A stretch of DNA of 64,000 nt from Erwinia aphidicola (GTDB taxonomy: Bacteria; Pseudomonadota; Gammaproteobacteria; Enterobacterales; Enterobacteriaceae), in assembly GCF_024169515.1 (NCBI RefSeq), contig NZ_JAMKCQ010000001.1:3720001-3784000 (forward strand). The letters are read 5' to 3'. Every line of letters begins with the position of its first letter. Position 1 is the first letter of the stretch. A program made the position numbers and the translations under genes. Below are positions 23,672 through 28,435 of this stretch, piece by piece. Under the pieces are notes generated by a model. The model was not told where the DNA came from and searched no databases. It saw only the letters and a list, made by a program, of their open reading frames with translations.

Positions 23672-25138
23672 TCATACAGGCACAAAAAACTGGAAACAGG
23701 CGCCGCGTTGCGGGCGATCGACCAGCTTAATATCGCTATCATGCAGCTGCAAAATGCGTCGCACGATCATCAATCCCAGCCCGCCAGCGCGATGCTTGCG
23801 CGCATTCAGCAGCGAAGGGCGCACAAACAGATCTTCGCGCAGTTCAGCGGCTATCCCCGGCCCGCTGTCATTGACCTGAACCTGTACTTTGCCAGCCTGC
23901 TGCGTCATCTCAATCTCAATCAGCCCATGCTCTGGCGTATGGCGCAAGGCGTTGTCCAGCAGGTTGGTCAGCACCCGCTCCATCATGCCGAGATCGGCCG
24001 TGACCAGCGGAATGCCCGGCGCGCCAGTTACCCGGATTTGCTGGTGGCGGGATTCAGCCGTCAGCTCAAATTTTTGCATCACGTCCTGCACCAGCTCACT
24101 CAGGCAGAACGTCTCCTTTTGCGGTTTCACCACGCCATATTCCAGCCGCGCCAGTTCGAACAGCTCCTGCGCCAGACGGCCCACTTTCTTACTCTGCGCC
24201 AGCGCGATGCCAAGGTAGCGCTGGCGATCCTCCACGCTGAGCGTATCGGCCTTCACCGACAGCGTTTCCAGATAGCCGTGCAGCGAAGTGAGCGGGGTGC
24301 GCAGATCGTGGGAAATATTGGCGACAAACTCACGCCGTAGCCGATCCTGCTGCGTCAGGCTCTGCCACTGCTGGTCAATACGCTGCGCCAGCTGGACAAA
24401 CGCCTGCTGCAGCTGCGCGACCTCATCCTGCGGTTTGCCCGGCGGCAGGGGGGTATGAGCCAGGGCGCGGATGGCATCAATGCCGTCATCGTCCAGCCCG
24501 GCCACCTGCTGAGTCAGCCTGCGCACCGGGCGCGTGACCCAGCGGAAGGCGAAGAACCCGGCAATGCCACCCAGTAGCAGTACCAGCCCCATCGATCGCA
24601 GCGCCATCAGCACCGCCGAGTGGCGCTGCGCGGCGCTGGCCAGCAGCGAATACTCCTCGCCCTGCAGTATGATATAGACGTAGCCCTGCACGCTGTCGCC
24701 CATTTTCAACGGCGCGGCGCTGAACACCTGCGGCCGTGCGGGATCGCGCGGGTTATCGCCGTAGATCGGCATCGCCGCACCGGCCTGCAGCTGGTGCACC
24801 GGAGCCAGATCAACCTGCTGGCGCAGCAGTTTTCCCGCTGGGGCAGCATTGGCAATGATCTTGCCGCTGCTGTCCAGCAGATACACTTCCACGCTCGGGT
24901 TAACCGCCATCAGCTGGTCAAACAGCTTGTGGACCGCGCCCCGATCCAGCCCCTGCGCGCTGAGCAGCGGGTTGTTACTGACGATCTGGCTGGCGAGGTT
25001 AACCGACAGCCGCTGCGTCACGGCCTGGCTATACTGACTGGCGGAACGCACCTGCAGCCAGCCGGAGATGGCGCAGCAGGCGATCAGCAGCACGATAAAC
25101 ACCAGCATCAGGCGCTGCGAGAGCGTAAGTCGTTTCAT
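23672..25138 (-). CDS. Sensor histidine kinase
   Basis: Inner-membrane kinase of 488 residues, partner of the response regulator whose gene overlaps it by 4 bases (ATGA). Layout: helix 1 (about 8-28), periplasmic sensor domain (about 30-175), helix 2 (about 178-198), HAMP, then the phospho-acceptor His277 in EFVANISHDLRTPLTSL, N box NLLDNALRHTP near 400, and G boxes DSGPGIA and GGLGLMIVRR. The periplasmic domain has no cysteines and no recognised ligand fold. The divergent position next to a redox operon suggests it senses envelope redox, metal or oxidant stress; this is inference. Confidence 0.9.
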   Translation of the reverse strand: MKRLTLSQRLMLVFIVLLIACCAISGWLQVRSASQYSQAVTQRLSVNLASQIVSNNPLLSAQGLDRGAVHKLFDQLMAVNPSVEVYLLDSSGKIIANAAPAGKLLRQQVDLAPVHQLQAGAAMPIYGDNPRDPARPQVFSAAPLKMGDSVQGYVYIILQGEEYSLLASAAQRHSAVLMALRSMGLVLLLGGIAGFFAFRWVTRPVRRLTQQVAGLDDDGIDAIRALAHTPLPPGKPQDEVAQLQQAFVQLAQRIDQQWQSLTQQDRLRREFVANISHDLRTPLTSLHGYLETLSVKADTLSVEDRQRYLGIALAQSKKVGRLAQELFELARLEYGVVKPQKETFCLSELVQDVMQKFELTAESRHQQIRVTGAPGIPLVTADLGMMERVLTNLLDNALRHTPEHGLIEIEMTQQAGKVQVQVNDSGPGIAAELREDLFVRPSLLNARKHRAGGLGLMIVRRILQLHDSDIKLVDRPQRGACFQFFVPV

Positions 25139-25863
25139 AGGTTTTCCCGGGCGTCGTGCGCCTCAGCGACAAATTTATAGCCCTTGCCCCAGACGGTAAG
25201 AATGCGCTGCGGCTCGGCGGGGTTAGCTTCGATTTTGATGCGCAGCCGGTTGATGTGCGTATTCACCGTATGCTCGTAGCCTTCGTGCTCGTAGCCCCAT
25301 ACCTGATTCAGCAGGTTGAGGCGCGAAAATACTTTGCCGGGGCTTTTGGCAAAGAAATAGAGCAGGTCGAACTCGCGTGGGGTCAGCTCGATGGGCTGCT
25401 GATTTAGCATCACCTCGCGCGAGATCGGATCAATCAGCAGCCCGGAGAAGCTCAGCGTCCCGGCATCCATCTTCAGATTACGGCTCATCGCCTCCTGGCG
25501 GCGAAACAGCGCCTTAACCCGGGCCACCAGTTCCAGCATCGAAAACGGCTTGGCGAGATAATCGTCCGCGCCCAGCTCCAGCCCGAGCACGCGATGCACT
25601 TCGCTGGAGCGGGCGCTGATGATGATGATTGGCGTATAGCGCGTCATATTGCGCGCCCGGCGGCAGATCTCCAGCCCGTCGACGCCCGGCAGCATCAGGT
25701 CAAGGATCAGCGCATCCCAGCCGCCTTTTTCCAGCAGTGCCGCCCCCCGATCCCCGTCGGCAGCGTGGGTGATTTCGTAGCCCTCGTCGCGCAGATGCAG
25801 CCCCAGCAGCTCGGCGATATCGCCATCATCCTCCACGATTAAAATACGTTTGCCGTTTTCCAT
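25135..25863 (-). CDS. OmpR/PhoB-family response regulator
   Basis: DNA-binding regulator of 242 residues. The receiver domain has the acidic pair ED at 11-12, the phospho-acceptor Asp55 in LILDLMLPG, and the switch Lys in YLAKPFS. The winged helix (about residues 140-235) shows ELTPREFDLLYF and the recognition region HTVNTHINRLRIKIE. It is cotranscribed with and upstream of the kinase gene. The 150-base divergent promoter region to the cytochrome b gene is the obvious target. Confidence 0.92.
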   Translation of the reverse strand: MENGKRILIVEDDGDIAELLGLHLRDEGYEITHAADGDRGAALLEKGGWDALILDLMLPGVDGLEICRRARNMTRYTPIIIISARSSEVHRVLGLELGADDYLAKPFSMLELVARVKALFRRQEAMSRNLKMDAGTLSFSGLLIDPISREVMLNQQPIELTPREFDLLYFFAKSPGKVFSRLNLLNQVWGYEHEGYEHTVNTHINRLRIKIEANPAEPQRILTVWGKGYKFVAEAHDARENL

Positions 25864-25957
25864 TCTGCCCGCCGTTGTCAGCCTTAATATCGCTCAGTTT
25901 ACACACCCGCCTGCCGCGGAGTTATCACATTTTGTTTAACTCTGCGTGAGGTCTTCG

Positions 25958-25964
25958 GGAACTT
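25958..25964 (+). promoter_or_regulatory. Possible sigma-E-like -35 element upstream of the cytochrome b gene
   Basis: GGAACTT, matching the RpoE -35 consensus, lies 50 bases before the ATG. A poor TCATC -10 candidate follows after about 17 bases. A heptamer is expected several times by chance in a window of this size, so this is only suggestive. Confidence 0.2.
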
Positions 25965-26013
25965 ATCCGGGCAATACTGCCTCATCGCAACGGAGTCGCT
26001 GAGGGTAAACATC

Positions 26014-26631
26014 ATGAACGTGTCAACCGGGGAAGCAGGCAGCCGGCCTGAGATTATCCATCCACTGTGGCTACGGCTGACGCACTGGCTTAACCTGCTG
26101 GCGGTGCTGATGATGGTCACCAGCGGCTGGCGCATTTACAACGCCTCACCGCTGTTTGATTTCAACTTTCCCGCTGAAATCACCCTTGGCGGCTGGCTCG
26201 GCGGCGCGCTGCAGTGGCACTTTGCCGCCATGTGGCTGTTTGGGTTCAACGGCCTGTTTTACCTGGTGATGAACGTGGCCAGCGGGCGGATAAAGCGAAA
26301 ATTTTGGCCGCTTAATCTGCACGGGCTGCTGGCCGACCTTGGTGCCGCGCTGCGCGGTAAATTGCAGCACAGCGATCCGCGCCACTACAACATGGTGCAG
26401 CGGCTGGCCTATCTGTTTGTGATGTTTGACGGCGTGATCCTGGTGCTTTCCGGGCTGGTGCTGTGGAAGTCGGTGCAGTTTCCGCTGCTGCGCGAGCTGC
26501 TGGGCGGCTACGACACGGCGCGCTACGTGCACTTTCTGGCGATGGCCTCGCTGCTGGGATTTGTGCTGCTGCACGTGGTGATGGTCGCGGTGGTGCCGAA
26601 AACGCTGCTGGCGATGCTGCGCGGACGTTAA
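26014..26631 (+). CDS. Di-haem cytochrome b561-type membrane subunit
   Basis: Four-helix cytochrome b of 205 residues in the inner membrane. Candidate haem-ligand histidines are in WLRLTHWLN (helix 1), LQWHFAAMW (helix 2) and RYVHFLAM with VLLHVVMV (helix 4). It resembles the membrane subunits that pass quinol electrons to periplasmic molybdoenzymes. The next gene, 9 bases later, codes for such an enzyme, so the two likely form one complex. The ATG at 26014 has GAGGGT upstream. Confidence 0.88.
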   Translation: MNVSTGEAGSRPEIIHPLWLRLTHWLNLLAVLMMVTSGWRIYNASPLFDFNFPAEITLGGWLGGALQWHFAAMWLFGFNGLFYLVMNVASGRIKRKFWPLNLHGLLADLGAALRGKLQHSDPRHYNMVQRLAYLFVMFDGVILVLSGLVLWKSVQFPLLRELLGGYDTARYVHFLAMASLLGFVLLHVVMVAVVPKTLLAMLRGR

Positions 26632-26640
26632 GGAGAGACG

Positions 26641-27432
26641 ATGAAAAAGATGATACGCACGATATTCAGCCCCGCAGAGACGCAGGACGTGGTGAAAGAA
26701 GCGCAGCGGCTGATTGCCCGCCAGCTTGAGTCCTCTTCACGCCGCCGCTTTCTGCGCCAGGGGTTAACCCTCGGTGGGGTAGCGATGCTGACCGGCTGTG
26801 ATATCAGCGACAACGCCGGAGTCGAAAAGGCGCTGAACTCGGTTTCCGGCTTCAACGACCGCGTGCAGCACTGGCTGTTCGGTAGTGACCGGCTGGCGCC
26901 GGAATACCCTGAATCGGCTATCACGCGCCCGTTTCCTTTCAACGCCTTTTATGGCGAAGAGGATATTCCGCAGGTTAGCGGCGAGGATTATCGCCTGAAC
27001 ATCGCCGGAAAGGTGCTCGATAAGCGCAGCTGGTCGCTGCCCGAACTGTACAACATGGCGCAGGTCAGCCAGGTGACGCGCCATATCTGCGTCGAGGGCT
27101 GGAGCGCGATTGGTAAATGGGGCGGGGTGCCGTTTGCCGACTTCCTGCGGCTGATTGGCGCTGACCTTAGCGCGCAGTACATCAGCTTCAAATGTGCCGA
27201 CGACTACTACACCAGCATCGATATGAAAACGGCGCTGCACCCGCAAACGCTGCTGGCGCTGACTTATGACGGGCAGATCCTGCCACCAAAGTACGGTTAT
27301 CCCATGAAGCTGAGGATGCCCACCAAGCTGGGATATAAGAATCCCAAGCATATTCAGGTTATCGAAGTGACTAACACCTTCCCGGGCGGTTACTGGGAAG
27401 ATCAGGGCTACAACTGGTTTGGCGGCAGCTAA
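26641..27432 (+). CDS. Tat-exported sulfite-oxidase-fold molybdopterin oxidoreductase
   Basis: 263-residue periplasmic molybdoenzyme related to MsrP/YedY and sulfite oxidases. A twin-arginine signal SSRRRFLRQGLTLGG lies at residues 32-46 after an unusually long n-region, and LTGC at 50-53 looks like a lipobox, so it may be a lipoprotein. The molybdenum ligand is Cys150 in HICVEGWSAIGKWGG. The rest of the fold is compact (MsrP has 334 residues). ATG at 26641 follows GGAGAG. The substrate is unknown; reduction of oxidised methionine, as in MsrPQ, is one possibility. Confidence 0.88.
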   Translation: MKKMIRTIFSPAETQDVVKEAQRLIARQLESSSRRRFLRQGLTLGGVAMLTGCDISDNAGVEKALNSVSGFNDRVQHWLFGSDRLAPEYPESAITRPFPFNAFYGEEDIPQVSGEDYRLNIAGKVLDKRSWSLPELYNMAQVSQVTRHICVEGWSAIGKWGGVPFADFLRLIGADLSAQYISFKCADDYYTSIDMKTALHPQTLLALTYDGQILPPKYGYPMKLRMPTKLGYKNPKHIQVIEVTNTFPGGYWEDQGYNWFGGS

Positions 27433-27456
27433 CGCCGCGAATAACAACGCTCTATC

Positions 27457-27471
27457 TGCACACTCTGTGCA
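27457..27471 (+). promoter_or_regulatory. Small hairpin between molybdoenzyme and MXKDX genes
   Basis: TGCACA, CTC loop, TGTGCA, a perfect 6-bp stem in the 61-base gap. It could set relative expression of the downstream gene. No T-run follows directly. Confidence 0.3.
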
Positions 27472-27493
27472 CTCTTACTATTAAGGAAATACC

Positions 27494-27775
27494 ATGAAAA
27501 AGTTAATCAATGCAGTGATGATCTCTGGCGTGATGATGATGGGTCTGAGCGGGGCGGCACACGCAGCGGACAGCATGAAGAAAGAGAGCATGAGCCATAT
27601 GTCCCACGACTGTATGGGCAAGGATTCAATGGGCAAAGATAAGATGGGCCATGACTGTATGAAAAAAGACGGCATGAAGAAAGACGCAATGTCGAAGGAT
27701 GCGATGAAGAAAGACAGCATGGGCAAAGATTCAATGAGCAAAGATGGCATGAAAAAGGATGCCATGAGTCAGTGA
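27494..27775 (+). CDS. Exported MXKDX-pentapeptide repeat protein
   Basis: 93-residue small exported protein. A Sec signal peptide (MKKLINAVMISGV, cleavage after AHA at residues 22-24) leads to a 69-residue mature part made of M-x-K-D-x units such as MKKDG, MGKDS and MSKDA. The mature chain has 14 methionines, two cysteines (HDCM twice) and several histidines, and is otherwise Lys/Asp/Ser rich and presumably disordered. The type is known as the pentapeptide MXKDX repeat family; function unknown. It ends the cytochrome b-molybdoenzyme operon. Met/His/Cys richness suggests metal binding or a methionine-oxidation target. AAGGAA precedes the ATG. Confidence 0.85.
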   Translation: MKKLINAVMISGVMMMGLSGAAHAADSMKKESMSHMSHDCMGKDSMGKDKMGHDCMKKDGMKKDAMSKDAMKKDSMGKDSMSKDGMKKDAMSQ

Positions 27776-27782
27776 TTGATCG

Positions 27783-27816
27783 AACGCGGATGGCTTCATG
27801 CTGTGCCGTCCGCGTT
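27783..27816 (+). terminator. Hairpin after the MXKDX gene
   Basis: AACGCGGATGGC and GCCGTCCGCGTT pair with one internal mismatch around a ten-base loop, 8 bases after the stop codon. No clear T-run follows. Confidence 0.45.
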
Positions 27817-27871: not shown

Positions 27872-28435
27872 TTATGAAATGGAAATACCCATTCTCTTAA
27901 GGATTTTATTCCCTGCAGTTTGAGGCAGCTTTATATTATTAATAATATTTATCTCATGATTAATATCGAGCCCTTCCGTATCCGAAAAGTCACAGTCGGA
28001 AAGATCTGTTCGGCGAAACTCGCAGTATGAAAAGGCAGAATTCGTAAAGCAGCTTTTCTTAAGATTGCAATCCTCAAAGGAACACTCCTTAAAGGAGCAG
28101 CTGCTGAAAGCACTGTTTTGCAACGCCAGATTAATAAAATCGACTAAGCTGAGTCGGCAATCGTAGAAGGAGAGTGAGTGCGGAATGGTCAAACCATTAA
28201 GCGAAACCCCTTGAATAAAACAATTGCGGAAAATGACATCGTTCATTCTCATAAATGACTGAGTTATCAGCCCGATTGAACTATCTGTAAACCTGCAGTT
28301 TTCGAACTCAAACTGACGCAAACGAATTTTTTCAAAGGTGCACCCGATGAAATCACAGTCAATGAAAGTACAGTTTTCTTGGGTGACATCCCTGACCTGC
28401 AGCCCTGTGTAGGTTTGATGTATGTACTCAATCAT
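27872..28435 (-). CDS. Qnr-like pentapeptide repeat protein
   Basis: 187 residues of five-residue coils with central Phe/Leu, for example CTFIDCDFIGCTFEK, SAFSSCSFKECSFEDCNLKK and FRRTDLSDCDFSD (right-handed quadrilateral beta-helix). The C-terminal helix ILKRMGISIS after an IKLPQTAGN stretch matches the dimerisation tail of Qnr proteins (LLMERLGIAV type). Qnr proteins bind DNA gyrase as DNA mimics; a similar role is possible but not shown. The gene is AT-rich compared with its neighbours and has a strong AGGAG site before the ATG at 28435, hinting at horizontal origin. It stands alone. Confidence 0.85.
   Translation of the reverse strand: MIEYIHQTYTGLQVRDVTQENCTFIDCDFIGCTFEKIRLRQFEFENCRFTDSSIGLITQSFMRMNDVIFRNCFIQGVSLNGLTIPHSLSFYDCRLSLVDFINLALQNSAFSSCSFKECSFEDCNLKKSCFTNSAFSYCEFRRTDLSDCDFSDTEGLDINHEINIINNIKLPQTAGNKILKRMGISIS

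Follow-up and report, generated by a model that had tools for sequence, protein, structure and literature searches.

What does a bacterium gain from an operon that joins a membrane cytochrome b, an exported molybdoenzyme and a small methionine-rich peptide to a divergently transcribed two-component system? The question is raised by a five-gene cassette in a 64,000-nucleotide stretch of the Erwinia aphidicola genome (assembly GCF_024169515.1, contig NZ_JAMKCQ010000001.1, positions 3,720,001 to 3,784,000; henceforth termed the window). A first-pass annotation had described the cassette as an MsrPQ-analogous system in which a peptide of the MXKDX family is either a sacrificial methionine pool or a metal buffer tied to the reductase. 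Following up this description by comparative sequence analysis, we consider it probable that the cassette encodes an envelope methionine-sulfoxide (MetO) repair circuit with the MXKDX peptide acting as a rechargeable oxidant sink.

In the proposed circuit, a kinase and a response regulator of the OrhK/OrhR type would sense envelope oxidation, and the regulator would act through a predicted operator (Table 1) to induce the cytochrome b561, the molybdoenzyme and MXKDX. Electrons would pass from quinol via the b561 cytochrome to the molybdenum of the enzyme, likely a membrane-anchored lipoprotein exported by twin-arginine translocation (Tat) that, judging from genomic context, presumably reduces MetO. 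The methionines of MXKDX would take up oxidant and then likely be re-reduced by the enzyme, for which the peptide may be one main, not the sole, client.

In a wider reading, to which we give slightly better than even chances, OrhKR would command, as master switch, a whole regulon against methionine oxidation in the envelope. Three MetO reductase modules would answer to a single 25-bp operator, i.e., a new quinol-driven Tat-lipoprotein molybdoenzyme with its di-haem b561, an exported MsrB-DsbD-MsrA set, and MsrPQ, and MXKDX would be a purpose-built, catalytically recharged sink that turns quinol electrons into hypochlorite or peroxide scavenging. The cassette belongs to a published kind; the distinct enzyme class and the OrhKR-MsrAB-MsrPQ regulon were not found in the open-licence literature searched, where no paper linked OrhKR to MsrAB or to Pseudomonas and none joined b561 with a methionine-rich peptide, Msr and molybdopterin. 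The MXKDX repeat family, whose use is little known, and an unassigned molybdoenzyme family would thereby become one testable circuit, the E. coli OrhKR reductase would no longer be filed as MsrPQ-like, and a small conserved regulon is predicted to join repair enzymes of different kinds in Enterobacterales, Pseudomonas and Burkholderiales. If this is true, bacteria make a renewable envelope oxidant sponge for which the respiratory chain pays.

OrhKR beside methionine-sulfoxide reductases

A scan of genome contigs with 22 aligned enzymes returned at least 590 stretches that encode a relative of the window enzyme. The best 80, coined scan loci, were kept, and counts over them therefore do not describe a random sample. 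They come from Enterobacterales, Pseudomonas, Burkholderiales, Rhodocyclales and unplaced assemblies. Together with two E. coli loci, the window and 17 further loci they make up 100 loci, which we classed by the control genes next to the operon: 35 have a divergent regulator of the OrhR type, 22 have the sigma factor SigF (with NrsF detected beside it in 20), 35 have neither adjoining, and 8 were not evaluable.

The MetO-repair reading is favoured because the same type of regulator and operator adjoins msrB-msrA and MsrPQ elsewhere. OrhK was sought in 12 genomes of our choosing, nine without an adjacent kinase and regulator and three of the sigma type, and an orthologue (50–56% identity, nearly full length) was present in ten. 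In 7/7 Pseudomonas genomes among the 12, orhKR lies away from the cytochrome-molybdoenzyme-MXKDX operon and diverges from msrB and msrA, with the operator in the gap; both msr genes have signal-like starts, and a DsbD-like thioredoxin gene stands between them in five of the seven. The Paraburkholderia orhKR faces msrB-dsbD-msrA, and the cytochrome-molybdoenzyme operon of that genome is of the sigma type. In Citrobacter, the genes across the operator from orhKR encode a true MsrP (499.6 bits, cut-off 207) and MsrQ (224.8 bits, cut-off 130), and an operator also precedes the cytochrome-molybdoenzyme-MXKDX operon of the same genome (L020). Family scans confirmed MsrA, MsrB, MsrP and MsrQ in the examples tested; MsrA and MsrB are unrelated to the window enzyme, and MsrP shares its fold. 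Edwardsiella is an exception, with no Msr gene near orhKR in the 11 kb examined. Its orhR adjoins an intact left operator half (L167:6556) that may have stayed behind when an operon moved, no Msr gene lying opposite.

A whole-genome pattern scan at up to one mismatch, run on 17 genomes that we likewise selected, found two exact operator sites in each of the seven Pseudomonas genomes, one before the cytochrome-molybdoenzyme-MXKDX operon and the other between orhR and msrB-msrA; a single Pseudomonas genome has an additional one-mismatch site. No site was detected in three genomes, namely those of L053 and L069, in which no OrhK was found, and that of L042, in which it was not sought. The backward pattern, used as control, had 0 matches in all 17 genomes.

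The MetO-repair reading is also favoured because MXKDX is paired with MsrB and MsrA in a genome from which the molybdoenzyme is absent (G364, not among the 218 genomes with a match to our enzyme model A1). There, the peptide gene stands beside SigF/NrsF, a protein resembling FecR below the Pfam cut-off, a twin-Arg MsrB, a DsbD/thioredoxin protein and an MsrA with a signal-like start. Genomes G194 and G197 encode weaker, sub-cut-off methionine-rich peptides followed directly by MsrA with a signal-like start (Pfam checked for G194) and hold a distant enzyme elsewhere. Among the scan loci, msrA occurs in 11/80. Chance would account for about 0.4, an estimate based on 37 of the genomes concerned, which average 5.6 Mb and hold 83 copies; we chose these 37 ourselves, and the 11 are among them. 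In a Bordetella species, a cytochrome-molybdoenzyme-MsrB unit appears in tandem duplicate (L041:1523-8794), unless this is an assembly artefact.

These neighbourhoods bear on whether the molybdoenzyme could instead be another S- or N-oxide reductase or a sulfite dehydrogenase, with MXKDX an independent stress protein sharing the operon. We regard this as unlikely. A fold comparison matched the enzyme equally well to MsrP and to sulfite dehydrogenase, and structure therefore leaves the substrate undecided; moreover, 42 of 76 enzyme genomes in the survey below carry no MXKDX over the cut-off. Against this stand scores far under the cut-offs of the sulfite dehydrogenase models (SorA, 48.9 of 600 bits; SoxC, 41.6 of 420), the recurrence of the same regulator and operator type beside msrB-msrA and msrPQ, and the replacement of the molybdoenzyme by thiol-type Msr enzymes in G364.

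The operator

The operator in the window, TCACA-N15-CGTGA, differs by one mismatch from the site TCACA-N15-TGTGA proposed for OrhR in uropathogenic E. coli (Gu et al. 2021, PMC8550376). Across loci, the 25-bp consensus is gAGTTaTCACatTT.aTTtAActTT.CGTGAgg. It precedes the cytochrome gene in 29 of the 35 loci with an adjacent kinase and regulator, versus none of the 22 sigma-factor loci, which form a better control than our shuffle of single bases, taken from the first 510 nt per two-component-class locus rather than from promoter regions. The operon is also preceded by the operator in 20/20 Pseudomonas loci, none of which was found to have a kinase and regulator adjoining, L029 lying too near a contig end to tell. 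In E. coli UTI89 we read the variant TCACA-N14-TGTGA, whereas PMC8550376 gives N15. The window operator is the only exact site in its own genome, where one more site occurs at three mismatches and the backward control gives five matches at three or fewer. A sigma-70 scan of positions 25864-26020 of the window detected no promoter-like site.

A quick tree with long branches, covering 76 of the 100 loci and one MsrP (15 of the 24 left out are Pseudomonas), counts 13 regulator changes, a rough figure. The SigF-type control of 22/100 loci is also found in the hypochlorite systems of Azospira and Brucella. In two genomes, a DUF1223 protein adjoins SigF/NrsF/MXKDX loci (L064:4375-5229 and L111:586-1410).

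The MXKDX peptide and its pairing with the enzyme

The window peptide scores 90.3 bits against TIGR02953 (cut-off 41) and is the single match to this model in its own genome; the UTI89 peptide, with 35.2 bits, falls below the cut-off. With the signal cut placed by a simple A-x-A rule, the mature window peptide has 69 residues, including the 14 Met and 2 Cys counted in the first-pass annotation, whose "several His" number three, and contains HDCM blocks.

To the same annotation we owe the suggestion that the gene order be sought in other genomes and that MXKDX be tested for co-occurrence with the molybdoenzyme and cytochrome b pair. The order recurs in many genomes and is hence not confined to the window, and the co-occurrence with the enzyme is far beyond chance. 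Among 398 genomes drawn evenly from the phylum, MXKDX exceeds the cut-off in 35, and the enzyme, in a close or distant score band, is encoded in 34 of these 35 versus 42 of the other 363 (Fisher P 7e-27). The peptide is found in 24/28 genomes with a close-band enzyme and in 10/48 with a distant-band one. The enzyme lies within 5 kb of the peptide gene in 22 of the 35, farther away or on another contig in 12, and is missing in G364. Score bands and distances in this survey were entered by hand, labels of upstream or downstream peptides are rough, and the cytochrome was checked only in fetched loci. Because many genomes carry the enzyme without the peptide, the enzyme must have clients besides MXKDX.

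At closer range, a fixed rule for Met/Lys/Asp-rich open reading frames picked 71 of the 6,850 frames of 40-260 codons in 83 loci (the scan loci, two E. coli loci and the window; 71 of the 83 gave a peptide). Since 64 of these 71 lie immediately downstream of the molybdoenzyme gene, the pairing of peptide and enzyme is not due to chance. By a looser window rule, 77/80 scan loci encode a methionine-rich peptide, the three without one being L011, whose contig ends 50 nt past the enzyme, L065 and L072.

The first-pass annotation knew of no assigned function for MXKDX proteins, a statement that is out of date: a role as hypochlorite sink has been proposed for the methionine-rich peptides MrpX and BcrX (PMC8315932, PMC4623255). 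Of its two suggestions for the peptide, we favour the sacrificial methionine pool tied to the reductase. The other would make MXKDX mainly a Cu(I)/Ag(I) buffer whose methionines the reductase keeps reduced and metal-binding, and appears improbable to us. It draws on the two Cys, three His and HDCM blocks of the window peptide and on distant peptides rich in Met, His and Asp (L115, L116); in addition, the copper chaperone CusF of E. coli is among the proteins that MsrP repairs, and copper induces msrP as well, via CusSR (PMC9302797), and the Caulobacter sigma-F is reported to answer heavy metals (PMC3511200). However, Cys and His are not conserved, which weakens the metal-buffer reading: among the 71 mature peptides 43 have no Cys, 23 no His and 16 neither. 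The median count per mature peptide is 0 for MxxM versus 11 for M-x4-M. The linked genes are MetO reductases, metal-gene neighbours not having been searched systematically, and kinase and regulator score under the cut-offs of the heavy-metal and Cu/Ag models.

Variants of the peptide exist in distant relatives. L115, L116 and L117, which have a kinase and regulator of their own, encode peptides with His, Asp or Glu instead of Lys between the methionines (e.g., MSHDDG repeats). At L141:3237-3485, a methionine-rich peptide with a signal-like start and the six-residue repeat ADAMKP precedes MsrA by about 20 nt, going by the listed start; by its sequence it is a second repeat design in the same place.

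The molybdoenzyme and its cytochrome partner

By sequence criteria, the enzyme and cytochrome form a pair analogous to MsrPQ, not a member of that family. The window and UTI89 enzymes reach 75.6 and 73.4 bits with the MsrP model NF003767 (cut-off 207). The window cytochrome gave no match to the MsrQ model and matched PF01292 only; the UTI89 cytochrome likewise belongs to PF01292. Four histidines (His24, His69, His173 and His187) are invariant in 99/99 cytochrome homologues, the pattern expected of a four-helix di-haem b561. In the enzyme, Cys150 and the twin Arg are both invariant among 51 aligned homologues, and a lipobox, assigned by sequence pattern rather than by a signal predictor, follows directly past the twin-Arg stretch in 99 of 100 homologues, the sole miss being L119 with LNGC. 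The residue after the lipobox Cys is Asp in 18/18 scan loci of three Enterobacterales families and mostly Ser or Asn elsewhere. Asp at +2 retains a lipoprotein at the inner membrane by Lol avoidance. Following this rule, a lipid anchor likely holds the molybdoenzyme close to its cytochrome, on the periplasmic side of the inner membrane.

A second PF00174 protein in the same genome (L001) is a true MsrP (497.7 bits) without a lipobox, and the next gene encodes a true MsrQ (217.9 bits). The housekeeping MsrPQ thus exists separately, and the cassette comes on top of it. We give very little credence to the proposal that it is a divergent MsrPQ operon under a YedVW/HprSR-type system. Window enzyme and MsrP have the sulfite-oxidase fold and the Mo-ligand Cys in common, and the operon logic is similar, but the proposal already fails the sequence tests, given the MsrP and MsrQ results, the lipobox in nearly all homologues and none in the genome's own MsrP, the separate MsrP and MsrQ, and a regulator score of 155.3 bits with the HprR/YedW model (cut-off 353). 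The first-pass comparison with MsrPQ accordingly holds as an analogy, whereas enzyme, cytochrome and regulator fail as MsrP, MsrQ and HprR (YedW). Like the cassette, MsrPQ with HprSR (YedVW) of E. coli K-12 combines an exported molybdoenzyme of the same fold, a membrane haem partner, two-component control and envelope MetO repair; unlike the window cytochrome, MsrQ comes from another membrane family. The MsrPQ operon of E. coli K-12 is not known to encode a methionine-rich peptide.

Published relatives

The closest described relative is the OrhKR locus of uropathogenic E. coli, from which the names OrhK and OrhR derive (PMC8550376, as are the following E. coli data). In gel shifts, OrhR binds upstream of the c3566-c3567-c3568 operon, which is peroxide-induced, and protection from tert-butyl hydroperoxide has been shown for the kinase and regulator genes as well as for those of cytochrome and enzyme, loss of either of the latter causing peroxide sensitivity. 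Judged by sequence, the window cassette is an orthologue of this OrhKR-C3566/C3567/C3568 locus. The five genes recur, identically arranged, in UTI89 and on plasmid pVR50B, where they are 40-69% identical to those of the window, the UTI89 values being 48% for the kinase, 67% for the regulator, 58% for the cytochrome, 65% for the enzyme and 43% for the peptide. All five genes (C3564-C3568) are thus homologous, and order, divergent layout and operator type agree. The surroundings differ: in E. coli the locus sits within a pathogenicity island and, according to PMC8550376, shares its transcript with a toxin operon, and the window copy stands beside hemB without such a neighbour. The label differs, too. 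The E. coli report describes the pair as a putative Msr system homologous to MsrPQ, with 27.6% and 23.1% identity to MsrP and MsrQ, whereas our tests point to a b561 cytochrome and a predicted Tat lipoprotein; the published label is loose, since the UTI89 cytochrome belongs to PF01292 and the UTI89 enzyme scores under the MsrP cut-off.

The kinship extends to the control genes. The window kinase is 48-50% identical, over its full length, to the E. coli cassette kinases (L083, L084) and is the only match at E <= 1e-30 in its own genome; the regulator is 67-69% identical to the E. coli cassette regulators. Each was compared with the 25 NCBIfam models listed for it and stays under every cut-off. 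Membership in the heavy-metal (CzcRS/CopRS/CusRS) two-component systems was rejected (TIGR01386, 160.1 of 292.55 bits; TIGR01387, 163.4 of 279.2; NF007345, 101 of 423; NF007346, 152.4 of 420). Met77 in the periplasmic domain is invariant in 27/27 cassette kinases above 400 bits; as 30 other residues of this domain are equally invariant, it is a candidate oxidant sensor only.

Three further systems show related designs. BcrX is an MXKDX protein proposed to act as a hypochlorite sink and, HOCl-induced, accompanies a putative MetO reductase pair (PMC8315932). The BcrXQP unit has the same three parts as our cassette; unlike the latter, it is controlled by an extracytoplasmic function (ECF) sigma/anti-sigma pair (BcrS/AbcS), and the peptide gene is at the opposite end of the operon. 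The order peptide-cytochrome-enzyme also occurs in L115-L123, with a b561-type cytochrome (Pfam checked for L123) and a distant enzyme. In Azospira suillum, hypochlorite reportedly oxidizes the periplasmic methionine-rich peptide MrpX, which a YedY-type enzyme re-reduces (Melnyk et al. 2015, via PMC8315932, PMC5748585 and PMC4623255), and exported MsrA/MsrB beside mrpX in perchlorate islands have already been noted (PMC4623255). Like the cassette, this MrpX/YedYZ system places an exported methionine-rich peptide next to an enzyme of the YedY fold and a haem protein of the membrane, but it is under SigF/NrsF instead of two-component control. A Rhodocyclales relative (L069) matches the b561 cytochrome family in our scripted search, and a homology search for Azospira YedY1 listed Dechloromonas and Azonexus relatives among its best 120 matches, with no Azospira name among them. 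Finally, the EcfF/OsrA regulon of Bradyrhizobium japonicum is SigF-type (ECF16), peroxide-induced and includes three peptide MetO reductases (PMC3420878); it differs in having no two-component system, and no MXKDX peptide is mentioned in the portion of that report available.

In E. coli, 350 of 5,426 genomes gave a blastn match to the cytochrome-molybdoenzyme region, which is covered to at least 80% in 72 of them. With 75 of its 363 places on plasmids, the cassette seems mobile in this species. A record titled Chryseobacterium with an enterobacterial-type cassette (L018) is probably mislabelled or a mixed assembly.

Layout of the cassette and its surroundings

Gene calls and family assignments bear out the five-gene anatomy of the first-pass annotation (Table 1), including the divergent arrangement, Cys150 and the twin-Arg motif. 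All five genes are open reading frames; those of kinase and regulator overlap by 4 nt, and gaps of 9 and 61 nt separate the cytochrome gene from the molybdoenzyme gene and the latter from the MXKDX gene.

Table 1. Features of the cassette, in window coordinates.
Feature	Position	Strand	Evidence and remarks
OrhK-type sensor histidine kinase, 488 aa	23672..25138	-	periplasmic domain, HAMP, HisKA, HATPase; Pfam HisKA, HATPase_c, HAMP
OrhR-type OmpR/PhoB response regulator, 242 aa	25135..25863	-	PF00072 and PF00486
Predicted OrhR operator TCACATTTTGTTTAACTCTGCGTGA	25925..25949	+	64 nt ahead of the cytochrome b start
Cytochrome b561-type membrane protein, 205 aa	26014..26631	+	PF01292, 84.2 bits; predicted quinol-oxidising di-haem partner
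Molybdoenzyme, sulfite-oxidase fold, 263 aa	26641..27432	+	PF00174 Oxidored_molyb; Mo-ligand Cys150; predicted Tat lipoprotein
Twin-Arg motif (residues 34-35) and lipobox LTGC (residues 50-53, Cys53), Asp at +2	26740..26799	+	sequence
Exported MXKDX methionine-rich peptide, 93 aa	27494..27775	+	TIGR02953; predicted recyclable oxidant sink

The hemB gene that the cassette adjoins had no match in other loci of the set at the time of the search, and the flanks are therefore not shared. Downstream of the MXKDX gene, a perfect 12-bp hairpin without a T-run (27783-27816) may mark the transcript end. It is followed by a gene for a pentapeptide-repeat protein of 187 aa (27872-28435, minus strand) that resembles the HalA and Qnr models only weakly, below their cut-offs; at 40% G+C, against 57% for the window, this gene was likely acquired.

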